From assembly GCA_903970285.1 (NCBI GenBank), contig CAJCHN010000049.1:1-64000 (forward strand): 64,000 nt of DNA, in the 5' to 3' direction. Each line of letters begins with the position of its first letter. The first letter of the stretch is position 1. This document shows, piece by piece, positions 1-56,878 of the stretch. The notes beneath the pieces were generated by a model, which was given only the letters and a program-made list of their open reading frames with translations, was not told the origin of the DNA and did no database searches. The stretch comes from Rhodanobacteraceae bacterium (GTDB taxonomy: Bacteria > Acidobacteriota > Terriglobia > Terriglobales > Acidobacteriaceae). Position numbers and translations under genes: made by a program.

Positions 1-1079
1 ATGTAGTCGGGCTTCGGCGGCAGGATGGTGGCAATCTCATCCTCGGAGTTGGCGATGCGATCGGGAGTCTGCGGGTGGTCGGAGAAGGCCTTCGCCAGCG
101 TGCCCGGATGATGCTTCTCGAGCGCGTCGAGCTTTTCGAACAAGGTGATGAAGCTCTGCGGATCGTACCCGGCCTTGTACATATACTGCACGCCCAGGTA
201 GTCGGCCTCCGCCTCGTCCATGCGCGAGAATTTGAGGAACGACATCGGGATGGCGAGCTGCGACGCCTCGTAGATGCCATACCCCGTCCAGCTTCCCTGG
301 GTCATGATGATCAGCGGAATAGAACCAATCTCAGCGTAGTTCATCTTGGTCTGCTGTCGTGCCGCATGGTGCGCCACCACGTGCGAGATCTCGTGCGCCA
401 TCACGCCGGCGAGCTCCGCTTCCTCGTCGCAGTTCAGGATCAGGCCGGAGTTGACGTAGAAGAAGCCTCCGGGCAGCGCCATCGCGTTGATCTCGTCCGA
501 ATCGATCACCTTGATGGTGAACGGGACTTTGGCGTCAGAATTCTTGACCAGATTCTGACCGATGCGATTCACGTACTCCACCACCACCGGATCGGTGATG
601 AGGTGCGCCGACTTCTCGATCTCCATCGAGTACTGCTTGCCGACGCGAATCTCCCAGTCCGTGGAGTACCAGTTGCCCAGCCCGCGGCCGCCGATGTTGC
701 GCGTTCCTATGGCGTTCACATCGTCTTCGCTGCCCGGCTTGATGTGCGGATTCAGCGCTTCGCCGGGCGACGGAATGGAGTCGGTCGCAGGCTTTGCGTT
801 GCCTGCCGCTTTCGGGGCCTTGGAATCATCCGTTGTCGAACCATCGGGCAGCGAGAGCGTGCGGCGACCGGTGGACGCGGTATCGTCGGACGTGGACGAT
901 GTCTGGTTCGCCGGCTGAGTGGAGGATGCGGCGGGCGGCGTGGAACTCGTCGAGGCGGGAGCGGGAGCAGGTGTCGTGGCAGACGGCGGAGCCGATGCGG
1001 GCGTCTGAGTGGTCTGGGCGTACGCGGCGACAGGAAGGATCAGGCAGGCGGCGAGGCCGATTTGCGATAGACGTGGCAT
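1..1079 (-). CDS. M48 family metalloprotease (3' end outside window)
   Basis: Zinc endopeptidase of family M48, predicted to act in the periplasm or envelope on misfolded proteins. The ATG at 1079 opens a hydrophobic signal peptide ending near AYA, followed by about 90 residues rich in Ser, Thr, Pro and Ala, a typical flexible linker. The zinc motif HEISH is at residues 229-233 (DNA 381-395), and the downstream motif MDEAEAD supplies the third ligand, as in the family. The reading frame runs off the left edge with no stop, so the C-terminus (in this family often TPR repeats) is not visible. It lies 360 bp downstream of the pseudopilin operon on the same strand. It resembles BepA-like proteases, but the exact role cannot be told from sequence. 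Confidence 0.9.
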   Translation of the reverse strand, partial: MPRLSQIGLAACLILPVAAYAQTTQTPASAPPSATTPAPAPASTSSTPPAASSTQPANQTSSTSDDTASTGRRTLSLPDGSTTDDSKAPKAAGNAKPATDSIPSPGEALNPHIKPGSEDDVNAIGTRNIGGRGLGNWYSTDWEIRVGKQYSMEIEKSAHLITDPVVVEYVNRIGQNLVKNSDAKVPFTIKVIDSDEINAMALPGGFFYVNSGLILNCDEEAELAGVMAHEISHVVAHHAARQQTKMNYAEIGSIPLIIMTQGSWTGYGIYEASQLAIPMSFLKFSRMDEAEADYLGVQYMYKAGYDPQSFITLFEKLDALEKHHPGTLAKAFSDHPQTPDRIANSEDEIATILPPKPDY

Positions 1080-1439: not shown

Positions 1440-1934
1440 CTACCAGGTATTGTAGGTGGTGCCGTCGGTCGAGACCTGCTGCGAACCGGAGTGGACGTTG
1501 TCGATTCCGCCCTGCTGGGTCTCGTCCAAGTTGGTGAAGGAGTCGCCCTGATCGGCGATCCAGGTATCGTTGCGCTGAGTCATCGGGTCGATCGGCAGCA
1601 CCTTCAGGTAACCCGACTGCACCAGGTCGTCGAGCGACTGCGGCGCCTTCTGCTTGTCGTAGGTATAGGAATCGATGGCCCCGCGCATGGTGTGGAGATC
1701 CTCCTTGAGGACCGCTTCACGGGCGTGCTTGATGTTGGCGACAAAAGCCGGAACGGCGATCGAAGCCAGGATCGCGATGATCATCATGACGATCAGGAGT
1801 TCGAGCAGGGTAAAGCCCGCCGCCAGGTGCCGGTTCTCAGCCGCCGGTTCTGTGTTCCCGGCCGGGCGCGGCAGAGCGGCGCGCCGGAGGGTGGCGGAAA
1901 ACTGAGAGGTGCGGCCTGAGAACGGTTTCACCAT
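1440..1934 (-). CDS. GspG-like type II secretion / type IV pilus pseudopilin (second copy)
   Basis: Pseudopilin of the GspG type, about 164 aa, expected to be cleaved by a prepilin peptidase and built into a periplasmic pseudopilus. The signature is AGFTLLELLIVMMI followed by a hydrophobic stretch: Gly before Phe (cleavage site) and Glu five residues into the mature part. The C-terminal half has the GspG-style pattern PQSLDDLVQSGYLKVLPIDP. An ATG at 1934 was chosen because it lies at the end of the upstream pseudopilin gene (7-bp overlap) and leaves a 30-residue basic leader, longer than usual. It is the last gene of the operon secretin - pseudopilin - pseudopilin. Paralogous to its upstream neighbour. 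Confidence 0.88.
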   Translation of the reverse strand: MVKPFSGRTSQFSATLRRAALPRPAGNTEPAAENRHLAAGFTLLELLIVMMIIAILASIAVPAFVANIKHAREAVLKEDLHTMRGAIDSYTYDKQKAPQSLDDLVQSGYLKVLPIDPMTQRNDTWIADQGDSFTNLDETQQGGIDNVHSGSQQVSTDGTTYNTW

Positions 1935-2503
1935 GTGTCGTATTTTGTGCCGTCGAGAGCGGTTGCGGTGCTCTTGGAGCGGACGTCGAAGACGTTCTGG
2001 CCGCCCCACGAGGTAGCGTCCTCGTCGTCCTGCACGGAGCGGAAGTCCCAGTCCGCAGTTCCGGTCATGGGATCGACGGGGATGGCGCGCAGGAACTTGA
2101 GCTTAGTGTTCATCACGTCGACTCCGTCGACCAGGGTCTGGAGGTCGGGCGGATAGCCGAGAGTATCGATCTTCACCTGGCCGACGCCGCCCTTGTCGGC
2201 CGCGTCCTTGTAGTGGTCGATGGCGTCGCGCATCTCCCAAAGTTCGGCGCGAAGTTCGCGTTCTTTCTCCCGCTTGACCTGGATGCGGACGACCGGCGCG
2301 GCCGCCGACGCCAGCACGCCAAGGACGGTAATGGCGATGACGAGTTCGACCAGGGTGAGGCCGGCGTCGCGGTGCGCCTGAGGCCTTGTACAGTCGCGGC
2401 TGGCGGAGCAGGTCCGCAGCGCCCTCGCGCAGATCGGGCGGGGTGAGCCCGCGGCCGTGCGAAGGACTGGGGGAGAAACTCCGATTTGCCTTCCAGCGGT
2501 CAT
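1928..2503 (-). CDS. GspG-like pseudopilin (first copy)
   Basis: Second pseudopilin of the operon, 191 aa. The prepilin motif is DAGLTLVELVIAITVLG, with Gly-Leu rather than the commoner Gly-Phe at the cleavage site and the conserved Glu at +5. The C-terminal half carries the GspG-like GYPPDLQTLVDG and AIPVDPMTG motifs and ends in KYDTW, nearly the same ending as the next gene (TYNTW), so the two arose by duplication. The start ATG overlaps the stop of the secretin gene by 4 bp (ATGA), which implies translational coupling. The leader before the cleavage site is long (about 47 residues); a later start would shorten it but would lose the coupling. Confidence 0.87.
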   Translation of the reverse strand: MTAGRQIGVSPPVLRTAAGSPRPICARALRTCSASRDCTRPQAHRDAGLTLVELVIAITVLGVLASAAAPVVRIQVKREKERELRAELWEMRDAIDHYKDAADKGGVGQVKIDTLGYPPDLQTLVDGVDVMNTKLKFLRAIPVDPMTGTADWDFRSVQDDEDATSWGGQNVFDVRSKSTATALDGTKYDTW

Positions 2504-5019
2504 TTCACATGGACCTGAGCGTTGGCGCCGGACGCCGCGAGGGCGACCTGGGCGCTGTTCTTCGCTCCTACTTTGACGAAGGAGATCGCTGAATCGCCCA
2601 CTGCCGCAGCGCGGAAGGTGAGGGTGCAGATGGATCCGGTGCCGCTGACGCCGGGCGCCTGCGGCGGCCGGGTGGCACCGATGGTGACCATACCGTTGCC
2701 GTCGTCGCGGTGCACGACGGTCTCCGGCTTGCCGTCTTTCTGCAGCAGCGTGCCGGCATCGACGTTGACCAGTTGCAGCACATGGGGATCGAACTGAAGC
2801 TGCATGGGCACGGAGAAGATGTCCTGGCCATTCTGCAGCGTGACCGCAACCTGGAAGGTGCTGCCCAGGGTCTGGCTGGAGTTGAGCGGCGAGATACCGA
2901 GCGCAACGGGTGCGGCAAAGCCGCTGTTGGCGGCGTCGGGCGCAGGCAGGGCGGTGGGCACAGATCCGGCGGCGGTAAAGGCTGCGCCGGGAACGCCGGG
3001 CTGGGCGCCGAACTGCGATCCGGTGCGGCCCTGCACCGGCGGCTGAGCGGCCTGGTTCATCTGCTGCAGCGCGGCAGTGGCGGCGTTGGCGGCGGTCGAT
3101 TGCGCACCCACCTGCGCCGGGGCGGCGTTGACGGGCATGTCCGCGGCAGCCACGGCGGCGGGGCTTTCGTCGCGGCGCAGCTCAATGCTGGCGCCGGTGC
3201 CGGTATCGATCGCGGCCAGGTTGGCGCGGGTGAGCACGGATTCACGCACGATGTGCGGGATCAGCAGAAAGACAATCTCGTCGGTCTGAACTTCTTTGCT
3301 CTGCGAACTGAAGAAGTACTTGAAGAACGGGATCTCGCCCAGGTAGGGGGTGCCGGCGACGGTCTTGTTGTCCTGCTTGGTGACGATGCCGGCGAGAATC
3401 GAGGGTTCGCCTTCCTTGAGTTGAATCACCTGCTCGAGCACGCGCTGCGCGATGATGGGCTCGGTGACATTCGAGATGGTGACCGAGCCGTTCTGCTGCG
3501 AGACCTCGACCTTGGTCTTCAGCGTGACTTCGCGGTCGTAGTGCACGGTGGGCGTGATGTCGATGTTGACGCCCACGTCGAGATAGGTGAACTGGGTCTG
3601 TACGCCGATGCTGGCGACGCCGGTCGAGACGCCGGCGTTGTAGCTGCCGGTGGCGATGGGGATCTTCTGGCCGATCTTGAGCGTGGCGCGCTGACCGTCG
3701 GTGGCGCGGATGCGCGGATTCTGCAGGACGCGGGTGTCGGTATCGGAAAGCATCGCGTTCAGGGTACCGCCGGAGATATTCACGGCGAAGTCGTTTGAGT
3801 TCAGCTTCGCGAGATTCGACAGGGTGAGGCTCTGCCCGGTGTTGGTCGTCGAGGTCATGGTCGTCGTGGTCGAGGACGTCGTGGTCGGAAGCTGCGGCGT
3901 CAGGCCGATGGAGGTGGGCAGGGTGATGCCGAGGTCGCGAATCCGGTCGCGGTTGACCTCGAGCACAGCCACGTCGACCACAACCTCCGGACGCGCGCGA
4001 TCGAAGTCGTTGATCAGCTTTTGCGCCAGAAGCAGCTGGTCGGTGGTGGCGCGCATCACGATCGCATTCTGGCTGGGAACGAGATAAAGCTTGACCGAGG
4101 GGTCGAGCAGGAGGCGCAACCCGGTCAGGATCTCGTTGCCATCGTTGGGCTGCGACGAGTTCGAGAGGTAGAACGTCTGGACTGCGAGTTCGTCGAGGTC
4201 GGTGCGCTTGGTGCGGGAGTTCTGCGCGACGAAGATCGTGTTCGACGTGACCGGCTTGTAGAAGGTTCCGGCGATGGTGCCGACGATGCGCAGGGCGTCC
4301 GAAAGGGTGACGTTGGTCAGGTCGACGGCGATGCGTTTCGAGGTGTAGTCGGGGTCGAAGATGACGTTGAGGCCGGCAGCCTTGCCGATGGCGATGTAGA
4401 TGTTCTTTACATCTTCGGTGGCGTGGAAGGTGATGGGATCGTTCGACACCGGCTTCAGCTCGATGGGACCGGCGATCGAGGCGATCTCCTGCTGGACCTT
4501 GTGCTCGTGCGAGCGCTGCTGGACGTCGGCGACCGCAGCCGGCCCAGTCAGTTGCGGCGGAGGCTGGTCGCGCTGGGTGATGACGATCTCCTGCTCGGCG
4601 GTCTGGTTGGAGGGGTCGATTTCGCGGGCGCGCAGGAACTGCTGCAGCGCGCCGGTCCAGTCGCCGTTCTGGCGCAGGACGCGTCCGCGGTCGACGTGCT
4701 GCACTGCCGCGAGGAAGCGCATGCGATCGAAGTGAGAGAGATAGCGCAGGTCCTTCGGCTTCTTGTCGTGCGCCTTCTTGTAGTCCTCGTAAGCCGTGTC
4801 GTAGTCCTGGCGGAGTTCGGCAGACGCACCGCGTTTATCCCAGGTGCCGGCGCTTTGCGCGTGCGCCGAGGCGGCCGAGCCGAAGCCCAGGATGGCCGCC
4901 GCGAACAGGAAGAAAGCAGCAGAGCGCGGAACGAAGGCAGCGGAGCGCCGGGGGAGCGGGAGAGATTCGGCTGCGTGGCTGACTACGTTCTGAAGGAGGG
5001 AGAGAAGCCCACGGCTCAT
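2500..5019 (-). CDS. Secretin (GspD/PilQ-like) with TPR region and C-terminal cohesin-like domain
   Basis: Outer-membrane secretin subunit, about 839 aa. Seen in order: a long leader with a hydrophobic segment at about 33-55; a TPR-like helical part at 60-145 (GDWTGALQQFLRAREIDP); an STN/N0-type domain at about 185-265; an N1-type domain at 280-360; a Thr-rich linker at 379-394; the secretin channel domain at about 420-592 (VPSQNAIV, ILAGIVTKQD, PYLGEIPFFKYFF, EIVFLLIPHIV); a low-complexity Ala/Gln linker at 620-700; and a beta-rich domain at about 708-839 resembling cohesin (FSVPMQLQFDP, LTFRA). The ATG at 5019 is chosen because it begins a signal-like leader; an open frame continues upstream to 5199. 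It starts the operon with two pseudopilins, stop and start overlapping by 4 bp. Confidence 0.92.
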   Translation of the reverse strand: MSRGLLSLLQNVVSHAAESLPLPRRSAAFVPRSAAFFLFAAAILGFGSAASAHAQSAGTWDKRGASAELRQDYDTAYEDYKKAHDKKPKDLRYLSHFDRMRFLAAVQHVDRGRVLRQNGDWTGALQQFLRAREIDPSNQTAEQEIVITQRDQPPPQLTGPAAVADVQQRSHEHKVQQEIASIAGPIELKPVSNDPITFHATEDVKNIYIAIGKAAGLNVIFDPDYTSKRIAVDLTNVTLSDALRIVGTIAGTFYKPVTSNTIFVAQNSRTKRTDLDELAVQTFYLSNSSQPNDGNEILTGLRLLLDPSVKLYLVPSQNAIVMRATTDQLLLAQKLINDFDRARPEVVVDVAVLEVNRDRIRDLGITLPTSIGLTPQLPTTTSSTTTTMTSTTNTGQSLTLSNLAKLNSNDFAVNISGGTLNAMLSDTDTRVLQNPRIRATDGQRATLKIGQKIPIATGSYNAGVSTGVASIGVQTQFTYLDVGVNIDITPTVHYDREVTLKTKVEVSQQNGSVTISNVTEPIIAQRVLEQVIQLKEGEPSILAGIVTKQDNKTVAGTPYLGEIPFFKYFFSSQSKEVQTDEIVFLLIPHIVRESVLTRANLAAIDTGTGASIELRRDESPAAVAAADMPVNAAPAQVGAQSTAANAATAALQQMNQAAQPPVQGRTGSQFGAQPGVPGAAFTAAGSVPTALPAPDAANSGFAAPVALGISPLNSSQTLGSTFQVAVTLQNGQDIFSVPMQLQFDPHVLQLVNVDAGTLLQKDGKPETVVHRDDGNGMVTIGATRPPQAPGVSGTGSICTLTFRAAAVGDSAISFVKVGAKNSAQVALAASGANAQVHVK

Positions 5020-48931: not shown

Positions 48932-49987
48932 CTACTGCGGAGGGTTCGCCGGCGGAGGAGTCGTGCCGCTGCCAGAGCCGCTGCCTCCCGGCCCCGCGCC
49001 TCCCGGCCCCGAATTCCCCAGCCCCTGATTTCCCGACCCGCTATTGCCGAAGCCCGATCCGCTGTTGCCGAAGCTGGAGGCGTTATTGCCACTGCCCAAG
49101 GTGCCGGAGCCGAATGTGCTGGTTCCATTCGAAGTGCCGCTGCCGGAGTTCACGCCGCCCAGGGCCGCGCCCGCCGAATACTGCTGCTCGATGCGTGGGT
49201 CGTACAGAAACTCCCAGTCCTGGTAGTTCGTCTGCTCATTGACCGTCAGCATGGCCTCGCCGCTCTTGGGCACCCCTACGCCCATGATCGGTCCGCCGCC
49301 GCCCTTGTAGTCAGTGGCATTCTGGTCGCCGATGCCGGACGAACTCGACCCGGAACTGGGACCTGACGTCCCCGGCGTCGAACCGGAAGGGCTGGAACCG
49401 GTGCTACTGACCGGGCCAGACCCACTCTGACCGAACGGCGATCCGCTGTTCCCGCCGAAGCTCGATCCGCTGTTCCCCGAGCCGAAACTGGAACTTGAAC
49501 CAAAGCTCGATCCGCTGCCAGGCCCGGAAGCCGCTCCGTTCGAAGATCCAAACGCTGAACCGGTGCCGCTCTGCATCCCCGCCGCCGACCCCAGCCCGCC
49601 GCCAATGCCGGGCAGATCCTCACCGAACATGCCCTTGACCGTGGTCTTGTTCTGGCCCACTTGGATCAGGCGCCAATCGTCCTTGCCCGTCAACGGATCG
49701 ACGTAGCGCTGGCGCAGGAAGCGCATGTTATTGGTCTTCTTGGCCAGTGCATCCATGGACGTCGGGTAAGTCCCGAACTTGCGGTAGTAAAGCCGTATCG
49801 CCCGCACATACTGCTGCGCCCGGTGCCTGGTCTCCACCTCCCGGTCGCGCTTCAGCTGCATGGCCATCCGCGGTGCCGCCACCGCCAGCGTCAGCAGCAC
49901 CAGGAAGACCAGCACCAGCACCGCCAGCAGCATGTATCCGCTATCGCCCCGCCCAGGATGCTCGGAGGGTGTAGGCTGCATCGTCAT
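48932..49987 (-). CDS. GspG-like pseudopilin with large Gly/Ser-rich region
   Basis: 351 aa, twice the usual pseudopilin length. The N-terminus is GDSGYMLLAVLVLVFLVLLTLAVAAPRM, a type IV pilin-like hydrophobic helix, but the Glu at +5 is not present in the usual place (GYMLLAV), so cleavage and assembly may differ. The part up to about 115 has a GspG-like core (VRAIRLYYRKFGTYPTSMDALAK, RYVDPLTGKDDWRLI). It is then interrupted by a low-complexity Gly/Ser/Phe/Asn region with SGSSFGS-type repeats and ends in Gly/Ser/Pro-rich tail. Last gene of the pil operon; overlaps the preceding gene by 4 bp. Confidence 0.85.
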   Translation of the reverse strand: MTMQPTPSEHPGRGDSGYMLLAVLVLVFLVLLTLAVAAPRMAMQLKRDREVETRHRAQQYVRAIRLYYRKFGTYPTSMDALAKKTNNMRFLRQRYVDPLTGKDDWRLIQVGQNKTTVKGMFGEDLPGIGGGLGSAAGMQSGTGSAFGSSNGAASGPGSGSSFGSSSSFGSGNSGSSFGGNSGSPFGQSGSGPVSSTGSSPSGSTPGTSGPSSGSSSSGIGDQNATDYKGGGGPIMGVGVPKSGEAMLTVNEQTNYQDWEFLYDPRIEQQYSAGAALGGVNSGSGTSNGTSTFGSGTLGSGNNASSFGNSGSGFGNSGSGNQGLGNSGPGGAGPGGSGSGSGTTPPPANPPQ

Positions 49988-50592
49988 GGATTCGCCGCCG
50001 TAAGAGGCAGGTTCTGCTTGTTGCTGTTCGGCACGTCCTCGACCGTGATCGAGTTGGCCGAGATGGTCACGATGCGGTAACGCCGCTGCACGATGTCGCC
50101 GGCCGACGCCAGGAAGACATCATCGCCGCTGAGCAGCAGCGCACGCCGCACCCCCTGCTGTGTCTCGGTGCCGAAGAACTTGAGGTTGATGGGCGGAGGC
50201 GGAGGCGGACCCGAGGGCGCCGGCGGCGTGTAGGCCACCGGCTGCGGCTTGGGCCGGGCGTCGAACTTGGCCTTCACCTCGGCTATCTCCTGCGGTGTAG
50301 GACCCGGCGCGAAGATGTTGCGTCCGGTGCCGCTGTAGACCAGCGACTCCGCTCGGCGCATCGCCTCCATGTGCAGCGTCGGATCCAGCTGCGCGCTTAC
50401 CGTGCCCACTTTGACCGCAGCCTTCCCCGAGGTGCTTTTCGCTGCAGTCAGGATGACCGGCGCGGCCTGGGGCGGCGGTGTGGAGGGACCGCCAAACAGA
50501 GTTTCGTATCCATAACCCACCGCCAGGATGGCCAGAAACCCAGCCACTCCGGCGATGATCATCTTCCGGCGGTCTTCGGTTCCCAGGTTCAT
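49984..50592 (-). CDS. PilP/GspC-like inner-membrane linker protein
   Basis: 202 aa. One membrane segment near the N-terminus (MIIAGVAGFLAILAVGYGYETLF), a Pro-rich linker (TPPAPSGPPPPPPINLKFFG) and a small beta domain (GVRRALLLSGDDVFLASAGDIVQRRYRIVTISANSITVED) with the shape of the PilP or GspC homology region, which links the inner-membrane platform to the secretin. Located between the PilO-like gene and the pseudopilin with ATGA overlaps on both sides. The assignment rests on size, layout and position more than on motif identity. Confidence 0.75.
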   Translation of the reverse strand: MNLGTEDRRKMIIAGVAGFLAILAVGYGYETLFGGPSTPPPQAAPVILTAAKSTSGKAAVKVGTVSAQLDPTLHMEAMRRAESLVYSGTGRNIFAPGPTPQEIAEVKAKFDARPKPQPVAYTPPAPSGPPPPPPINLKFFGTETQQGVRRALLLSGDDVFLASAGDIVQRRYRIVTISANSITVEDVPNSNKQNLPLTAANP

Positions 50593-51266
50593 CGCTGGTC
50601 TCCTTTCAGCGCCTGGGCGTCGACTTCGTCGGAGACCGAAACCGGGGTGCTGGCGCGGGCGGCCTCTTCATCCGAGCTGAGCCCGCGCAGGTAGGTGGTC
50701 AGCTTCATGCGCAGGTTTACGCGGCCGCCCTCCTGCCCGGTAAGGGTGACGCCGGTGACCACAAAGAAGACGCGGTCGCGCTCGAGACCGTTCAGAAATT
50801 CGACCAGGCCGCGATAGTCTCCACTCAGCCGCGCGTCCAGACGCACCTCGGTGAGCGGCCCGGAGGAAAGATCGGTGACCGCTTCCTGGGTGTAGCTGAC
50901 GCCGGTGAGGCGTACCTTGTTGGCGGTCTTCAGCACGCCCAGTTCGGTAGCGATCTCGGAGTAGCTCACCGGCAGCCGCTCGGCGTAAAAGGCATCTGCC
51001 TGCTCGGTCGCATGCTTCAGCTTAGCGTCGAGGCCATCCAGCGGCCTGGCCGCCTGGATGGCCGTGGCGAGCGCAATCCGCTGCTGCGCGATGGCGTCGG
51101 CGTTGTTGCCCCGGGCGGTCTGCCAGAGAATGCCAATCTGCACCAGCAGATAGAGGTTCACCAGGGCGAGCAGCGCGACGCCGGCCCAGTGCAGGTTGAG
51201 CAGGCTCATCTGCTCGCGCAGGTTGAAGCTGGGCGGTTTGGTCCGTGGGCTGACTGGATCGCTCAT
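50589..51266 (-). CDS. pilO: PilO-like alignment protein
   Basis: 225 aa. A cytosolic N-terminus, one membrane helix (WAGVALLALVNLYLLVQIGILW), a coiled-coil stretch and a ferredoxin-like beta domain (GDYRGLVEFLNGLERDRVFFVVTGVTL, GRVNLRMKLTTYLRG) characteristic of PilO/GspM partners. With PilM and PilN upstream it makes the alignment complex of type IV pili. Overlaps neighbours by 4 bp at both ends. Sequence identity of this family is always low, so position is a large part of the argument. Confidence 0.8.
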   Translation of the reverse strand: MSDPVSPRTKPPSFNLREQMSLLNLHWAGVALLALVNLYLLVQIGILWQTARGNNADAIAQQRIALATAIQAARPLDGLDAKLKHATEQADAFYAERLPVSYSEIATELGVLKTANKVRLTGVSYTQEAVTDLSSGPLTEVRLDARLSGDYRGLVEFLNGLERDRVFFVVTGVTLTGQEGGRVNLRMKLTTYLRGLSSDEEAARASTPVSVSDEVDAQALKGDQR

Positions 51267-52027
51267 CGGGCCCTCCCCTGCGGCTGGCTGGCTGGCCTGG
51301 GCTTTGAGAGTGCCTTCGACGCGGTTCTGGCCGCTGTTCTGGGCGCGGTTCTGGGCGCGATTCTGGCCCCGGTCTTGTCCGTCTTGGCCGCGGTCTCGGG
51401 CAACGGGTTGTAGCCGCTATAGATCTCGAATTCGACGGCACTGCCGAGATCGAGCGGGTTGGCATTCACATTCTGCAGGCTTGCCGAGCCGCTGGAGCCG
51501 ATGGCTCTGGCCTTGTCCGATGCCAGCGAAGACTCGCCAGAGATTCTAGGGTCGAGAAAGCGCTGCGAGTGCTCGAGGTTGCGCACCAGCTGAATGGCCT
51601 TGTCGCGGTCGCCGGTAACGCGCAGACGAATGGACACCGCGCCCTCCTTCGAGATGACGGGCTCGATCGCGGTCACCTGGACGCCCACCGGAAGCACGTG
51701 CTCGAGGTCCATCATGACCGCAGTCCAACTGAAGCTTTTCTGTGCGAAGAGCGCGTTGAGGAACTGCGAACGCTCGAGCACGCCCTGATTCTCCGGCCGG
51801 CGCATGCGGACCTGGTTGGCCGCGGTGGCGCCCTGTACGCGCGCGGTCTGCGCCTTGAGCTGGTTCATCTCGGCGCCGGCAGCGGCCGCCCGCACGCTGA
51901 GCACATGCACGCCGTAGCTGAGTCCCGCGGCCAGCAGCAGCAAGGCGGCCATGGCCAGACGCAACTGCGCGAACAGCGGCCGAAGCTCGACGAATGGCCT
52001 GGAAGCAAGATTGATCGAGATCCGCAT
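51263..52027 (-). CDS. pilN: PilN-like alignment protein
   Basis: 254 aa. The N-terminal INLASRPF motif (RISINLASRPFVELRP) is the PilN segment that binds PilM. One membrane helix follows (LAMAALLLLAAGLSYGVHVLSV), then a periplasmic alpha/beta domain (MDLEHVLPVGVQVTAIEPVIS, VSIRLRVTGDRDKAIQLVRNLEHSQRFLDP). The C-terminal tail is basic and repetitive (APRTAPRTAARTAS), encoded by 12-bp repeats at 51321-51380. The ATG at 52027 shares one base with the pilM stop. Membrane part of the pilus alignment complex. Confidence 0.87.
   Translation of the reverse strand: MRISINLASRPFVELRPLFAQLRLAMAALLLLAAGLSYGVHVLSVRAAAAGAEMNQLKAQTARVQGATAANQVRMRRPENQGVLERSQFLNALFAQKSFSWTAVMMDLEHVLPVGVQVTAIEPVISKEGAVSIRLRVTGDRDKAIQLVRNLEHSQRFLDPRISGESSLASDKARAIGSSGSASLQNVNANPLDLGSAVEFEIYSGYNPLPETAAKTDKTGARIAPRTAPRTAARTASKALSKPRPASQPQGRAR
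51321..51380 (-). repeat. 12-bp in-frame repeats at the 3' end of pilN
   Basis: Five consecutive 12-bp units of the type GCGGTTCTGGGC (plus strand) encode an Arg/Thr/Ala-rich tail in the PilN-like protein. Units keep the frame, so tail length could vary between strains. Confidence 0.72.
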
Positions 52028-53238
52028 CAGCCCCTCAACGCTCCCCGGACGCTCGCCATCCACCCGCGCGGCACCCGCGACGTGACGGCTCCGCCGACGA
52101 GCATCGCCGGATCGACCAGCTCGCGGACCCGCATCTCGGCTTCGTCGAAGCCGGCCTCCCGCAGCAGCTCGCCGAGCATCTCGGCGCCGACGGTGCCGGC
52201 GGCCAGCACCACCCCGGGCGGCACCTGCAGCGTGTCTTCGAAGTATGCGGCCGCCACGCTGAGCGCCTGGGTGATTTCGCGGGCGGCGGCGCGCAGGCGG
52301 CGGGCCTCCCAGCCGGTTTCGGTGATAGGCAGGGGCGGAAGCATGGCCTCGCGGGGCAGCGGTTCATCCGGCGCGACGGCCTGAAAGTCGGCGGCGATCT
52401 GTTCAGCCAGAAGCTCGGCGGCGAGTTCCTCGGCCGCAAGCAGGTGGTGATCGTCGAGTACGCCGTAGCCGTTGAGCGGCTTTTGCATAGCCCACTCGCC
52501 GGCCGAAGACTCAAGATCGACCAGCGGCAGCGGCGGAAGCACTTCGGCCATTTCAGCTGCCATGGCGTCATCGAGCGCCAGGTCAACGGTGCGGTGCAGC
52601 AGCAGCACGCCGCCCTGCACGATGGCGGTGGTCACCGAATTTTCGCCGGCATTGACCACCAGGGTCGCAGCTTCCGTCTCCTGCAGGCCGGCGCATGCGG
52701 CGAGAGTGCTGGGGAGGACGGCGCCGGGTTCGAAACCAGCCTCGCGCACCATGCTTTCATACTCCGCCAGGACATCGCGGGGAACGGCCACCGCGAGCAC
52801 GCGAACCATTGACTTCGACTGCGACATAACCTGGTAGCTGACGACTGCGCCGTCGGCGTCGAAGGGCAGCAGCTTCTTGAGCCGGAAGCGCACGACCGCC
52901 AACGCTTCGACCGGCTTGGCAGGGAGCTGATCAAATTCGAGCAGCAGTACGCGCACCGCGGCGTCCGGCAGCACAAGCGTGGTCTGGCGCTCTTTGAGTG
53001 CGACAGCTTCCAGCGATTTGCGCACGGCCTGGATGGTCTCCCGCCGGGCAGCCGCCGAGGAGGTAGGCGCGAAATCGCCCTTGAGGCCCGGAACCGCGGC
53101 ACCGCCCTGCGGCGACGCGTGCGCGACGGCCGAGAGCAGCGCCTGCGCGTCCTCGGCCCGAGCGGCGACGACGCCCTCCGGCCGAATCTCCACGGCGAGC
53201 CGCGGCCTGGTGCCCAAGGTTGTGGGAATCAACGCCAT
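52027..53238 (-). CDS. pilM: PilM-like actin-fold protein
   Basis: 403 aa cytosolic ATPase-fold protein that binds PilN. Seen: an FtsA/PilM-like pattern with TLVLPDAAVRVLLLEFDQLP, KKLLPFDADGAVVSYQVM, VRVLAVAVPRDVLAEYESMVREAGFEPGAVLPST, TLVVNAGENSVTTAIVQGGVLLLHRTVDL (phosphate-binding loop) and VVLAAGTVGAEMLGELLREA. It begins the operon pilM-pilN-pilO-pilP/gspC-pseudopilin. A 206-bp gap separates it from pilB. Confidence 0.9.
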   Translation of the reverse strand: MALIPTTLGTRPRLAVEIRPEGVVAARAEDAQALLSAVAHASPQGGAAVPGLKGDFAPTSSAAARRETIQAVRKSLEAVALKERQTTLVLPDAAVRVLLLEFDQLPAKPVEALAVVRFRLKKLLPFDADGAVVSYQVMSQSKSMVRVLAVAVPRDVLAEYESMVREAGFEPGAVLPSTLAACAGLQETEAATLVVNAGENSVTTAIVQGGVLLLHRTVDLALDDAMAAEMAEVLPPLPLVDLESSAGEWAMQKPLNGYGVLDDHHLLAAEELAAELLAEQIAADFQAVAPDEPLPREAMLPPLPITETGWEARRLRAAAREITQALSVAAAYFEDTLQVPPGVVLAAGTVGAEMLGELLREAGFDEAEMRVRELVDPAMLVGGAVTSRVPRGWMASVRGALRG

Positions 53239-53444
53239 CGTCTTAGATTACCTGTCGCTCCAGCTTGCTTAGCGATCGGTGTCGAGCACAGATCGCTTGT
53301 TCTTGACGTCCACAACCGAGTATAGAAGCGCGAGGAACGCGAAGGGCCAAGACACGAGGGCCCACAATCGATGGCTTTTCTGCATGCAGACCAGCGTTCC
53401 CTGAGAGACCGGCCCTCTCGTTCTGCGCCATCAGAGACACGCTC

Positions 53445-55082
53445 TTATCGCCCGGCTTCAAGGAACGTGACTTTGTTGATCTCCTTGAGCGTCGTGACGC
53501 CGGCGCGGACACGGTCGAGGGCGGAGTCGCGCAGGAAGGCCATGCCTTTATCGCGAGCCTTCTTGCGAATCTCGCTGCCCGGTTTCTTGGCCAGCAGCAT
53601 CTCGCGAATCTCATCGTCGAGTTCCAGCAGTTCGTGGATGGCCGAACGTCCACGGTAGCCGGTGCCCGCGCACTCCATGCAGCCGGCGCCTTCCTTGAAG
53701 ACGACGCCGCGCCACTCATCCGGTTCGAGGCCGTTCTCGCGCAACTGGTCGTCGGTGTAGTCGACGTTGCGGACACAGAACTCGCACACCTGACGCACCA
53801 GGCGCTGCGCCAGGATGCAATTGAGCGCGGAGACGAAGTTGTACGGCTCGACGCCCATGTTCAGAAAGCGGCCGAGCACGTCGACCACGTTGTTCGCGTG
53901 CACGGTGGTGAAGACCAGGTGGCCGGTGAGCGCGGAGTTGATGGCGATCTGCGCTGTTTCGGCGTCACGGATCTCTCCCACGAGGATCTTGTCGGGGTCG
54001 TGGCGGAGGATGGAGCGCAGGCCGCGGGCGAAGGTCAGACCCTTTTTCTCGTTGACCGGGATCTGAGTGATGCCGCGGATCTGGTACTCGACCGGGTCTT
54101 CGATGGTAATGATCTTGTCTTCTTCGCTCTTGATTTCGTTGAGCGCGGCGTAGAGCGTGGTGGTCTTGCCGGAGCCGGTGGGGCCGGTGACCAGCACCAT
54201 GCCGTACGGCTCCTTAATATAGCGGCGGAAGCGGACGAGATCCTTTTCGGCGAAGCCCACCACATCGAGCGAGAGCTTGGTGAACTTCTCCGACATCGAT
54301 TCCTTGTCGAGCACGCGGAGGACGGCGTTCTCGCCGTGCACGGTGGGCATGATGCTGACGCGAAAGTCGATCAGGCGGCCCTTGTAGCGGACGCGGAAAC
54401 GGCCATCCTGCGGGACGCGGCGCTCGGCGATGTCGAGCTCGGACATGACCTTGATGCGCGAGAGGATGGTCTGGTGGTGCTCGCGGGCGATGGGAGCCAT
54501 GGCCTGCTGCAGCACCCCGTCGATACGGTACTTGACCAGCAGCGAATCGTCGAAGGTCTCCAGATGGATATCGGATGCGCGGCGCTCCAGCGCGGTGAAG
54601 ATGGTGGTATCGACCAGCCGGATGATGGGTGAGATGTCGTCATCGGCGGTCAGCTTCTCGATCGAGATGTTCTCGTCTGCGTTCTCCTCAGAAGAGAGCA
54701 CGTCGAAGGCGAGCCCTTCGCTGGCTTCGTCCAGCACACGCTGCGACTGCTCGGTCTTCTTCAGCAGGTCGGTGATCTGCGAGAGCGTGGCGACGCGGGT
54801 CACCAGGCGGGTGCCGAGCAGGCCTGAAATCTCATCCAGCACCATCAGCTTGGACGGATCGGAGACGGCGATGGCCAGGCGTCCGCCGGCCTGTTCGAGC
54901 GGCACGAAGTTGTAGCGGAACATCATGTCCACGGGCACGCTCTTGAACAGTTCGTGCTGGATCTTGAAGTTCTTGAGGTCTACAAACTCAGAGTGGTAGC
55001 GGCGCGCCAGTGCCCGGGCCCGCTCGGTTTCGTCCATGCCCATGTCGTTGACCGGGATCGGAATTGCTACAGGTGTCGCCAT
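53445..55082 (-). CDS. pilB: PilB/GspE-type assembly ATPase
   Basis: 545 aa. N-terminal GspE_N domain (RRYHSEFVDLKNF, VDMMFRYNFVPLE), then the T2SE ATPase: DIHLETFDDSLLVKYRIDGVL, Walker A GPTGSGKTT (300-308), Asp box TIEDPVEYQ, Walker B ILVGEIRDAET (366-376), the HANN His box and a tetra-Cys zinc site (Cys433, Cys436, Cys468, Cys471). Drives pilus or pseudopilus extension. The ATG at 55082 has AGGAGG about 13 bases upstream; one at 55115 is possible. On the same strand as pilC, which lies 593 bp upstream. Confidence 0.96.
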   Translation of the reverse strand: MATPVAIPIPVNDMGMDETERARALARRYHSEFVDLKNFKIQHELFKSVPVDMMFRYNFVPLEQAGGRLAIAVSDPSKLMVLDEISGLLGTRLVTRVATLSQITDLLKKTEQSQRVLDEASEGLAFDVLSSEENADENISIEKLTADDDISPIIRLVDTTIFTALERRASDIHLETFDDSLLVKYRIDGVLQQAMAPIAREHHQTILSRIKVMSELDIAERRVPQDGRFRVRYKGRLIDFRVSIMPTVHGENAVLRVLDKESMSEKFTKLSLDVVGFAEKDLVRFRRYIKEPYGMVLVTGPTGSGKTTTLYAALNEIKSEEDKIITIEDPVEYQIRGITQIPVNEKKGLTFARGLRSILRHDPDKILVGEIRDAETAQIAINSALTGHLVFTTVHANNVVDVLGRFLNMGVEPYNFVSALNCILAQRLVRQVCEFCVRNVDYTDDQLRENGLEPDEWRGVVFKEGAGCMECAGTGYRGRSAIHELLELDDEIREMLLAKKPGSEIRKKARDKGMAFLRDSALDRVRAGVTTLKEINKVTFLEAGR

Positions 55083-55675
55083 GCCAGTAAGACTCTCCTC
55101 CTGCGAACTCGTCATCCTGCTACCAGACACAATCGACTTCGCCGGACGCCCGCAGCGCGATCGCTTGTGACAAGCTTGGCTACGAGAACGATTGCAGCCG
55201 CTCCAATCCACTGATCCGCAGGATCTCTCGGACAGCTTTGACGAAGGCGCGCCGAGCGCTCCGCAATTGCACCAGGATATTCTTCCAGCGGCCTGCTGAT
55301 CGATATCTTGCCACTTGTGACGAGAAAAGCAATCTCACGGAGGGGTGATGTCGGCAATCGTCAGCTCTCGAGTCAGCCTTGCGGCTAATCAACGCCGCAC
55401 GAGCTCTTGCAGACTGTTTCCGGGGAAGCCGTTTCCGGTCGTGAGAGCCCGTTGATCCGGAATTGGGATGCTCCAGCGCGTCCGTTTCGTCCTCGATGCG
55501 GCTCCATCGAAGGGATGACGCACAACCAGCCTCCCGGACCATGCGTTCCCATGCCGTGCCCTCTAATCTTCTTCTTGTAACGCGTCACTTCTTGCGAGAG
55601 GGACGACGCGAAGCTCTTCTAAACTCCTCACACGCCCCCACGCGGGGCGTGCTTTTTTGCCAGGAAACTTCTCGT
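55083..55675. other. Long intergenic region between pilC and pilB
   Basis: 593 bp, unusually long for this operon. It contains a palindrome GCTTGT-G-ACAAGC (55163-55175) about 80 bp upstream of pilB, a short hairpin CGCGTC/GACGCG (55581-55610), and a strong plus-strand terminator at 55631-55658. No protein-coding gene is supported in it. The minus-strand side must hold the pilB promoter, which I cannot assign. Confidence 0.55.
55631..55658 (+). terminator. Strong terminator on the plus strand within the pilC-pilB gap
   Basis: CACGCCCC / GGGGCGTG 8-bp stem, 5-base loop, followed by C and six T. The T-run is only on the plus strand, which has no annotated gene ending here. It therefore suggests an unannotated short plus-strand transcript, or is a remnant; see findings. 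Confidence 0.8.
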
Positions 55676-56878
55676 CTAGCTGGATCCGGCGCTGGCGTTG
55701 AGGCTGAAGATCGGCAGGTAAAGCGCGATCAGGATGACCACCACCACCGCGCCCATCACCACCAGGATCAGCGGTTCGATGAGGCTCATAATCCAGGCGA
55801 GGTTGGTCTGCACATCCTCTTCGAAGAACTCGGCGACCGAATTGAGCATCTGCGGCAGCGCACCCGTGCTCTCGCCAACTTCGATCATCTCGACGGCGAG
55901 CTCCGGAAAGACCTTGGTGGCGGCCAGGCTGGACGACAATCCGCGGCCTTCGCGCACGGTCTCCACGGAGCGGTAGACAGCGGAACCGATCTGCCGCGAA
56001 TCGATGGCCTTGGCGGCGGTTTCAAGCGAAGGCACCAGGGGCAGGCCGCCGGTGAGCAGGGTCGACAGTGTGCGCGAGAAGAGTCCGACCTGGTACTTGA
56101 TCCAGACCTCGCCCAGGAACGGCGTTCCAATGCGGATGCGGTCGATGGTGCTGGCCCCGGCGTCCGTCCTGGTCCAGCGGAACACGAGGAACCCGAGAAT
56201 GGCTACGATCGGCAGCACATAGACGCCGTAGCTCTGGGCGCGCCGGCCGAGGTCGAGCAGGAAGACGGTCTCCCACGGCAGCTTGGTGCCCAGCTGATCG
56301 TAGAGCTGGGCGAACCGCGGCACCACGAAGGTGATGAGGAAGACCATCATGACGACCACCATGACGATCAGCACCGCCGGGTAGACGAGGCTGGCCTTCA
56401 GCTTCTTGCGAAAGGTCAGGGAGACCCGCTGGAAGTCGAGGAAGCGCTGCAGCACCTCTTCGAGGTTGCCCGAGCGCTCTCCTGCCAGCAGCGTGGTGGT
56501 ATAGACGAGGGGAAATCCGCCCTGCGCCTCGAAGGCGCTCGAGATCGACTCGCCGGTCTTGACGCGCTGCGCCACATCCTCCAGCTGAGCCCGGAAACTG
56601 AGCACCTTCTGCCGCCGCGCCAGCAGGTCGAGCGAGCCGAGGATGGGCAAGCCGGCCTTGATCAGAGTCAGAAACTGGGCGTTGAAGACGAGAAACGTCT
56701 CCAGCTTCACCTTTTTCTTACGGGAATCGCCGCCCAGCAGCCCCTTTGCCTTCACCGAGTAGACGAAGTACCCGGACTGCGTAAAGCGCGCCCGCAGTTC
56801 GTCCGCCGTCGCCGCGGCGTGGGTCTGCTCCTGCACCCGACCCCGCTCATCCGCCAATCTCACTACAAATTCAGTCAT
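55676..56878 (-). CDS. pilC: PilC/GspF-type platform protein
   Basis: 400 aa. Two GspF domains: first with LVFNAQFLTLIKAGLPILGSLDLLARR and FPLVYTTTLLAGERSGNLEEVLQRF, second with LFSRTLSTLLTGGLPLVPSLETAAKAI and FPELAVEMIEVGESTGALPQMLNSVAEFFEEDV. Hydrophobic segments VLIVMVVVMMVFLITFVVP, VYVLPIVAILGFLVF and a C-terminal helix (LILVVMGAVVVVILIALYLPIF). Inner-membrane platform that couples the PilB ATPase to subunit assembly. Upstream of pilB on the same strand and divergent from the S41 gene. Confidence 0.95.
   Translation of the reverse strand: MTEFVVRLADERGRVQEQTHAAATADELRARFTQSGYFVYSVKAKGLLGGDSRKKKVKLETFLVFNAQFLTLIKAGLPILGSLDLLARRQKVLSFRAQLEDVAQRVKTGESISSAFEAQGGFPLVYTTTLLAGERSGNLEEVLQRFLDFQRVSLTFRKKLKASLVYPAVLIVMVVVMMVFLITFVVPRFAQLYDQLGTKLPWETVFLLDLGRRAQSYGVYVLPIVAILGFLVFRWTRTDAGASTIDRIRIGTPFLGEVWIKYQVGLFSRTLSTLLTGGLPLVPSLETAAKAIDSRQIGSAVYRSVETVREGRGLSSSLAATKVFPELAVEMIEVGESTGALPQMLNSVAEFFEEDVQTNLAWIMSLIEPLILVVMGAVVVVILIALYLPIFSLNASAGSS

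Follow-up and report, generated by a model that had tools for sequence, protein, structure and literature searches.

The window analysed here is a 64,000-nucleotide stretch of contig CAJCHN010000049.1 (assembly GCA_903970285.1, positions 1 to 64,000), assigned to the Acidobacteriota and deposited as Rhodanobacteraceae bacterium. Near its start the window encodes a GspD-like secretin that carries a cohesin domain at its C-terminus, and this protein, together with the type II-like secretion machine to which it belongs, is the subject of this report. The secretin has the following parts, including tetratricopeptide repeats (TPRs) and a linker of low predicted local distance difference test score (pLDDT):

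2500..5019, minus strand: GspD-like secretin gene, 839 amino acids, with signal sequence, TPRs, N-domains, secretin barrel, linker and cohesin
4606..4833, minus strand: TPR repeats, residues 63-138 (Pfam)
3244..3753, minus strand: secretin channel domain, residues 423-592 (PF00263)
2917..3174, minus strand: Ala/Pro-rich disordered linker, residues 616-701, low pLDDT, with a single isolated helix at 643-657
2503..2916, minus strand: cohesin domain, residues 702-839 (PF00963 and structure prediction)

The start of the protein at 5019 (M[GS]RG) is shared by several relatives, and PF00263 identifies the channel domain above its cut-off (E value 2.9e-35, 121.8 bits against 27.5). The short Secretin_N domain PF03958 scores 19.3 bits in the window secretin, under its cut-off of 28.2, and is matched at E <= 0.001 by 47 of 49 aligned family members; TPR_2 is matched by 48 of the 49. 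The first-pass annotation had proposed that the protein ends in a low-complexity linker and a cohesin-like domain, and both PF00963 and the predicted structure bear this out. The hidden Markov model search that it had suggested places PF00963 on residues 717-818, above the cut-off (E 6.4e-13, 49.5 bits against 24.1), and the same profile hits 48 of the 49 aligned relatives (E <= 0.001). Predicted alone, residues 691-839 fold well (mean pLDDT 94.4) into a cohesin jelly roll. In the full-length model, a monomer with a predicted template modelling score (pTM) of 0.44, block-mean pLDDT is 93-98 across the cohesin (residues ~702-839) and 32-52 across the linker (residues ~616-701). This model shows a separate, tethered domain and rules out that the cohesin is part of the channel. 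Thus, neither of the outcomes that the annotation had named as contrary, the lack of a cohesin jelly roll or its incorporation into the channel, was found.

The top Foldseek match of the cohesin model was PDB 2xdh (E 1.2e-12), the non-cellulosomal cohesin of Archaeoglobus fulgidus, and the nearest solved structures listed were cohesins. The fold of 2xdh is identical in kind to that of the window domain; however, 2xdh is a lone module with ~21% identity, whereas the window cohesin sits on a secretin. Cellulosomal type I cohesins (PDB 1aoh, 1ohz) differ as well, because the window has a single cohesin on an outer-membrane channel, in a genome without a type I dockerin. The profile built here found no second cohesin in this genome, even at E <= 0.1. 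Mean pairwise identity among 20 close sequences (window included) was 0.75 for the barrel, 0.71 for the N-domains, 0.67 for the cohesin, 0.64 for the TPRs and 0.37 for the linker; within this close group the cohesin is conserved to about the same degree as the TPRs and much better than the linker. Invariant residues in 23 close cohesins include P48, Q50, Q52, H80, R81, P95, P96 and H147 (model numbering). Conservation and fold rule out a chance or artefactual origin of the domain, and the combination of cohesin and secretin is a real, conserved domain architecture.

The same fusion, which the annotation had recommended seeking across Acidobacteriota, recurs widely there. Secretin and cohesin lie in a single open reading frame (ORF) in 27 of 30 best-match loci and in 33 of 36 loci of named genomes, scanned with one peptide pattern; Edaphobacter, Granulicella, Bryocella, Candidatus Sulfotelmatobacter and one Nitrospirae metagenome-assembled genome (MAG) are among the latter. 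The closest named matches of the window's genome include Granulicella and Edaphobacter as well, which points to the Acidobacteriaceae. Barrel and cohesin are separated by 47-161 residues in 51 of 52 loci, with one artefact set aside. PF00963 matches were present in 52 of 61 genomes (the window genome and 60 relatives), in 35 of 37 genomes of the window's own family (the two without are 88% and 74% complete) and in 166 of 297 Acidobacteriota genomes (requested completeness 90), counts that also take in cohesin proteins other than secretins. Among 20 distant Acidobacteriota regions, hand-picked from cohesin hits in ORFs of ~700-890 amino acids, 19 had the fusion. All 19 secretin-bearing regions contained pilM and had gspE beside the secretin, the usual order being gspF-gspE-pilM-pilN-pilO-(PilP position)-secretin+cohesin. 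We also examined 29 genomes that gave no PF00963 match (all nine of the 61-genome set and 20 of the 131 in the 297-genome set), using the secretin alignment as query and a score of 300 or more as family membership. Twenty of them held 21 ORFs of the secretin family, and the other nine had weaker secretins or fragments only. The cohesin profile built here matched 18 of the 21 ORFs (E < 0.001, small database); one secretin ORF, L142, is cut short and has no cohesin match. At least two further strong secretin matches lie outside the count of 21.

A second phylum carries the fusion too. The cohesin alignment built here, which includes the Nitrospirae MAG, matched 43 of 118 genomes of that MAG's phylum, and the best Nitrospirota matches had secretin and cohesin in a single ORF in 20 of 20 cases. 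The fusion was likewise present in all 20 Nitrospirota regions hand-picked from 19 genomes (ORFs of ~760-915 amino acids; nine genomes in common with the best matches), each time followed by at least one pseudopilin. These regions contained pilM in 19 and gspE in 13 of 20 cases, several of the rest being cut by contig ends. Gene order was in some as in Acidobacteriota and in others (e.g. L126-L134) secretin-pseudopilins-gspF-gspE-pilM. Rather than standing as an isolated fusion, the cohesin-secretin accompanies the genes of an entire machine in both phyla.

In the window, the genes of this machine are split between two places on one strand: the secretin and two pseudopilins occupy 1440-5019 and the remainder 48932-56878. 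GspE, GspF and GspG-like pseudopilins thus accompany the secretin in two parts here, and stand together in most distant relatives fetched. The second part comprises:

55676..56878, minus strand: GspF/PilC (PF00482)
53445..55211, minus strand: GspE/PilB ATPase with MshEN domain (PF00437 and PF05157)
52027..53238, minus strand: PilM-like protein (TIGR01175 below cut-off; the homologue at locus L078 passes PilM_2)
51263..52063, minus strand: PilN-like protein (the homologous L078 protein matches PilN at 20.6 bits, cut-off 22.8)
50589..51266, minus strand: PilO/GspM-like protein (NF040576 under its cut-off at E 4.3e-7; its homologue at L078 scores above the PilO cut-off)
49984..50592, minus strand: small protein in the PilP/GspC position, its identity suggested by position
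48932..49987, minus strand: third, minor pseudopilin-like protein (weak GspG match, 20.5 bits, cut-off 88.85)

The protein in the PilP/GspC position has one N-terminal hydrophobic segment and no Pfam hit, and the candidates for a GspL/GspM platform are separate PilM-, PilN- and PilO/GspM-like proteins with weak profile scores. Across 29 loci cohesin distances track GspE distances (rho 0.78), which argues that the cohesin has travelled with the machine. PF00437 finds two ATPases in the genome (151 contigs), the window GspE and one on contig C150 that is presumably Tad-type; neither is a candidate PilT retraction ATPase. Because the C150 ATPase lies near another secretin, the window system appears to be the only GspE-type system of the genome. 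The genome's two other secretins both lack a cohesin. Type II GspD proteins with an S-domain and a pilotin (PulD/PulS, GspD/AspS) likewise have a secretin channel, GspE, GspF and pseudopilin genes, and a C-terminal element past the barrel. In the window secretin, however, that element is a tethered cohesin and TPRs stand at the N-terminus; the GspD equivalog TIGR02517 scores 140.2 bits, under its curated cut-off of 351.35, and the platform looks PilM/N/O-like, in separate proteins.

The usual partners of cohesins do not follow this distribution. No dockerin had been visible in the window, and this holds genome-wide for type I, the PF00404 profile giving 0 matches at E <= 0.001; dockerin-bearing enzymes, as expected of a cellulosome, were accordingly not found with that profile. 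Type I dockerins occur in 8 of the 61 genomes, as against 52 with a cohesin; seven of these 52 have both, and G017, the remaining genome with a dockerin, gave no match to the cohesin profile. Of the 118 genomes from the Nitrospirae MAG's phylum, 5 have type I dockerins, as does one of the 43 with a cohesin (G463). Classical cohesin-dockerin pairing is thus unsupported, type I dockerins being absent here and rare in relatives.

Cohesins apart from secretins were also seen. One protein (L003; G059 C117, ORF 202-2076) combines VWA, cohesin and type I dockerin domains and is unrelated to the secretin. In two genomes of the window's genus, cohesin and type I dockerin matches lie ~0.35 kb apart on one strand (G032 C1, ~1018030-1018782; G033 C7, ~147862-148627), possibly as a dedicated pair separate from the secretin. 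Three Acidobacteriota genomes (G195, G311, G317) have 12-13 cohesin matches, many of them in ORFs longer than 1400 amino acids, the longest 3583; these may encode surface proteins of a scaffold type.

Classical cohesins are surface docking modules, and the tether in the full-length model is long and flexible, as would suit a cohesin outside the cell that docks secreted proteins or other cells; the annotation had considered display at the channel mouth, on either face. In solved type II secretins, however, nothing but the rim reaches into the outer membrane; the S-domain at the C-terminus, to which the pilotin binds, sits against the exterior of the channel in the periplasm (excerpts of PMC6532946 and PMC6882859). 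A cohesin placed after the barrel in the same way would therefore most simply hang in the periplasm. With solved C-termini periplasmic, no type I dockerin in the genome and a cohesin that accompanies the machine rather than dockerins, we regard surface display as very improbable. What stands of the annotation's interpretation is the real, separate, tethered cohesin; its display at the outer mouth is unlikely.

We lean instead towards the view that the cohesin is a standing part of the type II-like machine, located in the periplasm, where it docks the channel to an envelope component other than a type I dockerin. Direct support for this view comes from the domain itself, its predicted fold, the disordered tether, conservation, co-inheritance and the lack of type I dockerins; from there we infer the periplasmic side, the copy number and the docking role. 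The protein would be the outer-membrane channel of a machine with GspF, GspE, a PilM/N/O-type platform and GspG-like pseudopilins. By analogy with solved 15-subunit secretins, about fifteen cohesins, one per subunit, would hang on flexible tethers from the periplasmic outside of the channel, just below the outer membrane, at the S-domain site of other type II secretins. There they would dock the channel to an envelope protein or wall component.

The lipobox-like N-terminus of many relatives would let the secretin pilot itself, freeing the C-terminus for another docking task; HxcQ is a precedent for a self-piloting secretin. A lipobox-like site was found in 23 of 39 other Acidobacteriota secretins and 20 of 21 Nitrospirota secretins, but in none of the 9 secretins of one close group, and in 5 of 21 in the window's group, those five being misplaced by eye. 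The pattern is crude; some Nitrospirota hits also seem to be in the wrong place, it passed over some likely sites, and only its trend is used: a lipobox-like N-terminus appears common in relatives and was apparently lost in the window's close groups.

The same periplasmic ring might instead catch substrates, binding a module shared by exoproteins and handing them to the channel, so that the module acts as a type II secretion tag. The structure matches identify a protein-docking fold, the gene belongs to what appears to be the genome's only GspE-type system, and the stretch between barrel and cohesin is long enough to reach about. No candidate ligand module was identified, however, type I dockerins are absent from the genome, and conservation across two phyla would demand an equally widespread substrate module, of which none was seen. 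We hold this unlikely. Its fuller form, in which some fifteen tethered cohesins read the shared module as a cohesin-based secretion signal conserved in Acidobacteriota and Nitrospirota, is a little less likely again.

Cohesins share their fold with some carbohydrate-binding modules, and a domain of this fold might bind peptidoglycan or another glycan and so hold the channel fast in the wall. Anchoring to the wall is required of secretins, and other type II systems achieve it through GspA/GspB (excerpts of PMC9239104). A wall-anchoring scaffold such as GspB/OutB might share a role with the cohesin, fixing the secretin in the envelope, but it is a protein of its own and carries an HR domain instead of a cohesin (same excerpts). 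Against glycan binding, F32 and F112 are the sole aromatic residues kept in all 23 close cohesins, both on sides assigned to the core, and the invariant set otherwise includes the residues named above (P48 to H147); yet positions 45 and 53 (model numbering) are mostly aromatic, which leaves a binding platform possible. The nearest solved structures listed are cohesins, and we consider glycan anchoring decidedly improbable.

Several observations weigh against the preferred reading of a docking part of the machine. No partner was found for the cohesin, the topology is argued by analogy, and the structural model is the monomer with the pTM of 0.44 given above. Outward residues of the dockerin-equivalent sheet 8-3-6-5 are no more conserved than those of the other sheet (0.94 versus 1.01 bits, p 0.45), and this test for a conserved face was negative in all three groups (p 0.45, 0.32, 0.37), with a presumed strand-to-sheet assignment and sides guessed from hydrophobicity. 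Coevolution beyond shared descent is weak and non-specific, its largest partial signal being GspE itself (partial correlation with the cohesin, GspF controlled, 0.57 and 0.71 in two samples). Because GspE is cytoplasmic we read this as shared descent and name no partner. The most repeatable weak signal, smaller than that of GspE, is with the PilO-like protein (GspE and GspF controlled; 0.24, 0/500 shuffles, 29 loci; 0.28, 1/500, 18 loci); the secretin N-part, the PilN-like protein and the PilP-position protein gave a partial signal in the first sample only.

The distribution also has points against it, among them the poor support that Pfam gives to the diverged cohesins. Of the 19 distant Acidobacteriota regions, only 11 showed recognisable pseudopilins next to the secretin (nine with two, two with one). 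When 13 of the 18 diverged ORFs were rescanned with Pfam, two passed the PF00963 cut-off (L138, L141), showing that the genome search had overlooked true matches, three scored under it (L144, L148, L149) and eight had no match (L139, L140, L143, L145, L147, L150, L153, L155); the putative cohesin of these eight is assigned solely by the profile built here. L152 has no recognisable cohesin, only a 42-residue tail, L146 has a different C-terminal region of more than 200 residues in its place, and G071 C20, one of the matches outside the count of 21, is a strong secretin match whose 585-residue frame leaves no room for a cohesin. The PF00963 genome search gave nothing in the Nitrospirae MAG. A rescan of ten Nitrospirota secretins left five passing (L118, L119, L122, L125, L136), three below the cut-off (L121, L126, L131) and two without a match at E 0.01 (L128, L133).

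Cohesin and secretin are each of known kinds. Titles and abstract openings of the open literature, among the matches listed, contained no cohesin-bearing secretin, and within that scope the constant pairing of the two in a type II-like machine is an undescribed variant; an earlier mention or a domain-architecture database entry is possible. The word "cohesin" is absent from PMC6668835. Two open questions concern the way in which type II machines recognise folded substrates and the way in which secretins are held in the envelope. For either, this conserved docking domain, which folds separately, sits on the channel and occurs in two phyla (soil Acidobacteriota among them), offers a bait that can be purified. 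Cohesins would moreover be seen at work in a setting without type I dockerins.

The secretin is flanked in the window by the following genes:

1928..2503, minus strand: pseudopilin 1, GspG-like, in ATGA overlap with the secretin stop
1440..1934, minus strand: pseudopilin 2, GspG-like; the listed ORF extends to 2009 from a GTG
3..1079, minus strand: M48 metallopeptidase carrying a signal sequence, its frame running off the start of the contig

The ATGA coupling described in the first-pass annotation is visible in the sequence (pseudopilin 1 start at 2503, secretin stop codon 2502-2500), and its two tandem GspG-like pseudopilins both have the prepilin N-methylation motif. TIGR01710 (GspG) matches them at 28.7 and 47.9 bits; because these scores fall below the cut-off of 88.85, "GspG-like" is the right label. 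For pseudopilin 2, the probable start is the ATG at 1934, which overlaps the stop of pseudopilin 1 (ATGGTGA), and not the GTG at 2009. When translated from the ATGA, pseudopilin 1 has an unusually long leader, ~45 residues ahead of the prepilin motif. Among 33 Acidobacteriota loci (L031-L063), both pseudopilins lie downstream of the secretin in 32, the remaining one ending at a contig end; the M48 peptidase follows pseudopilin 2 in 20, and smpB lies upstream of the secretin in 30.

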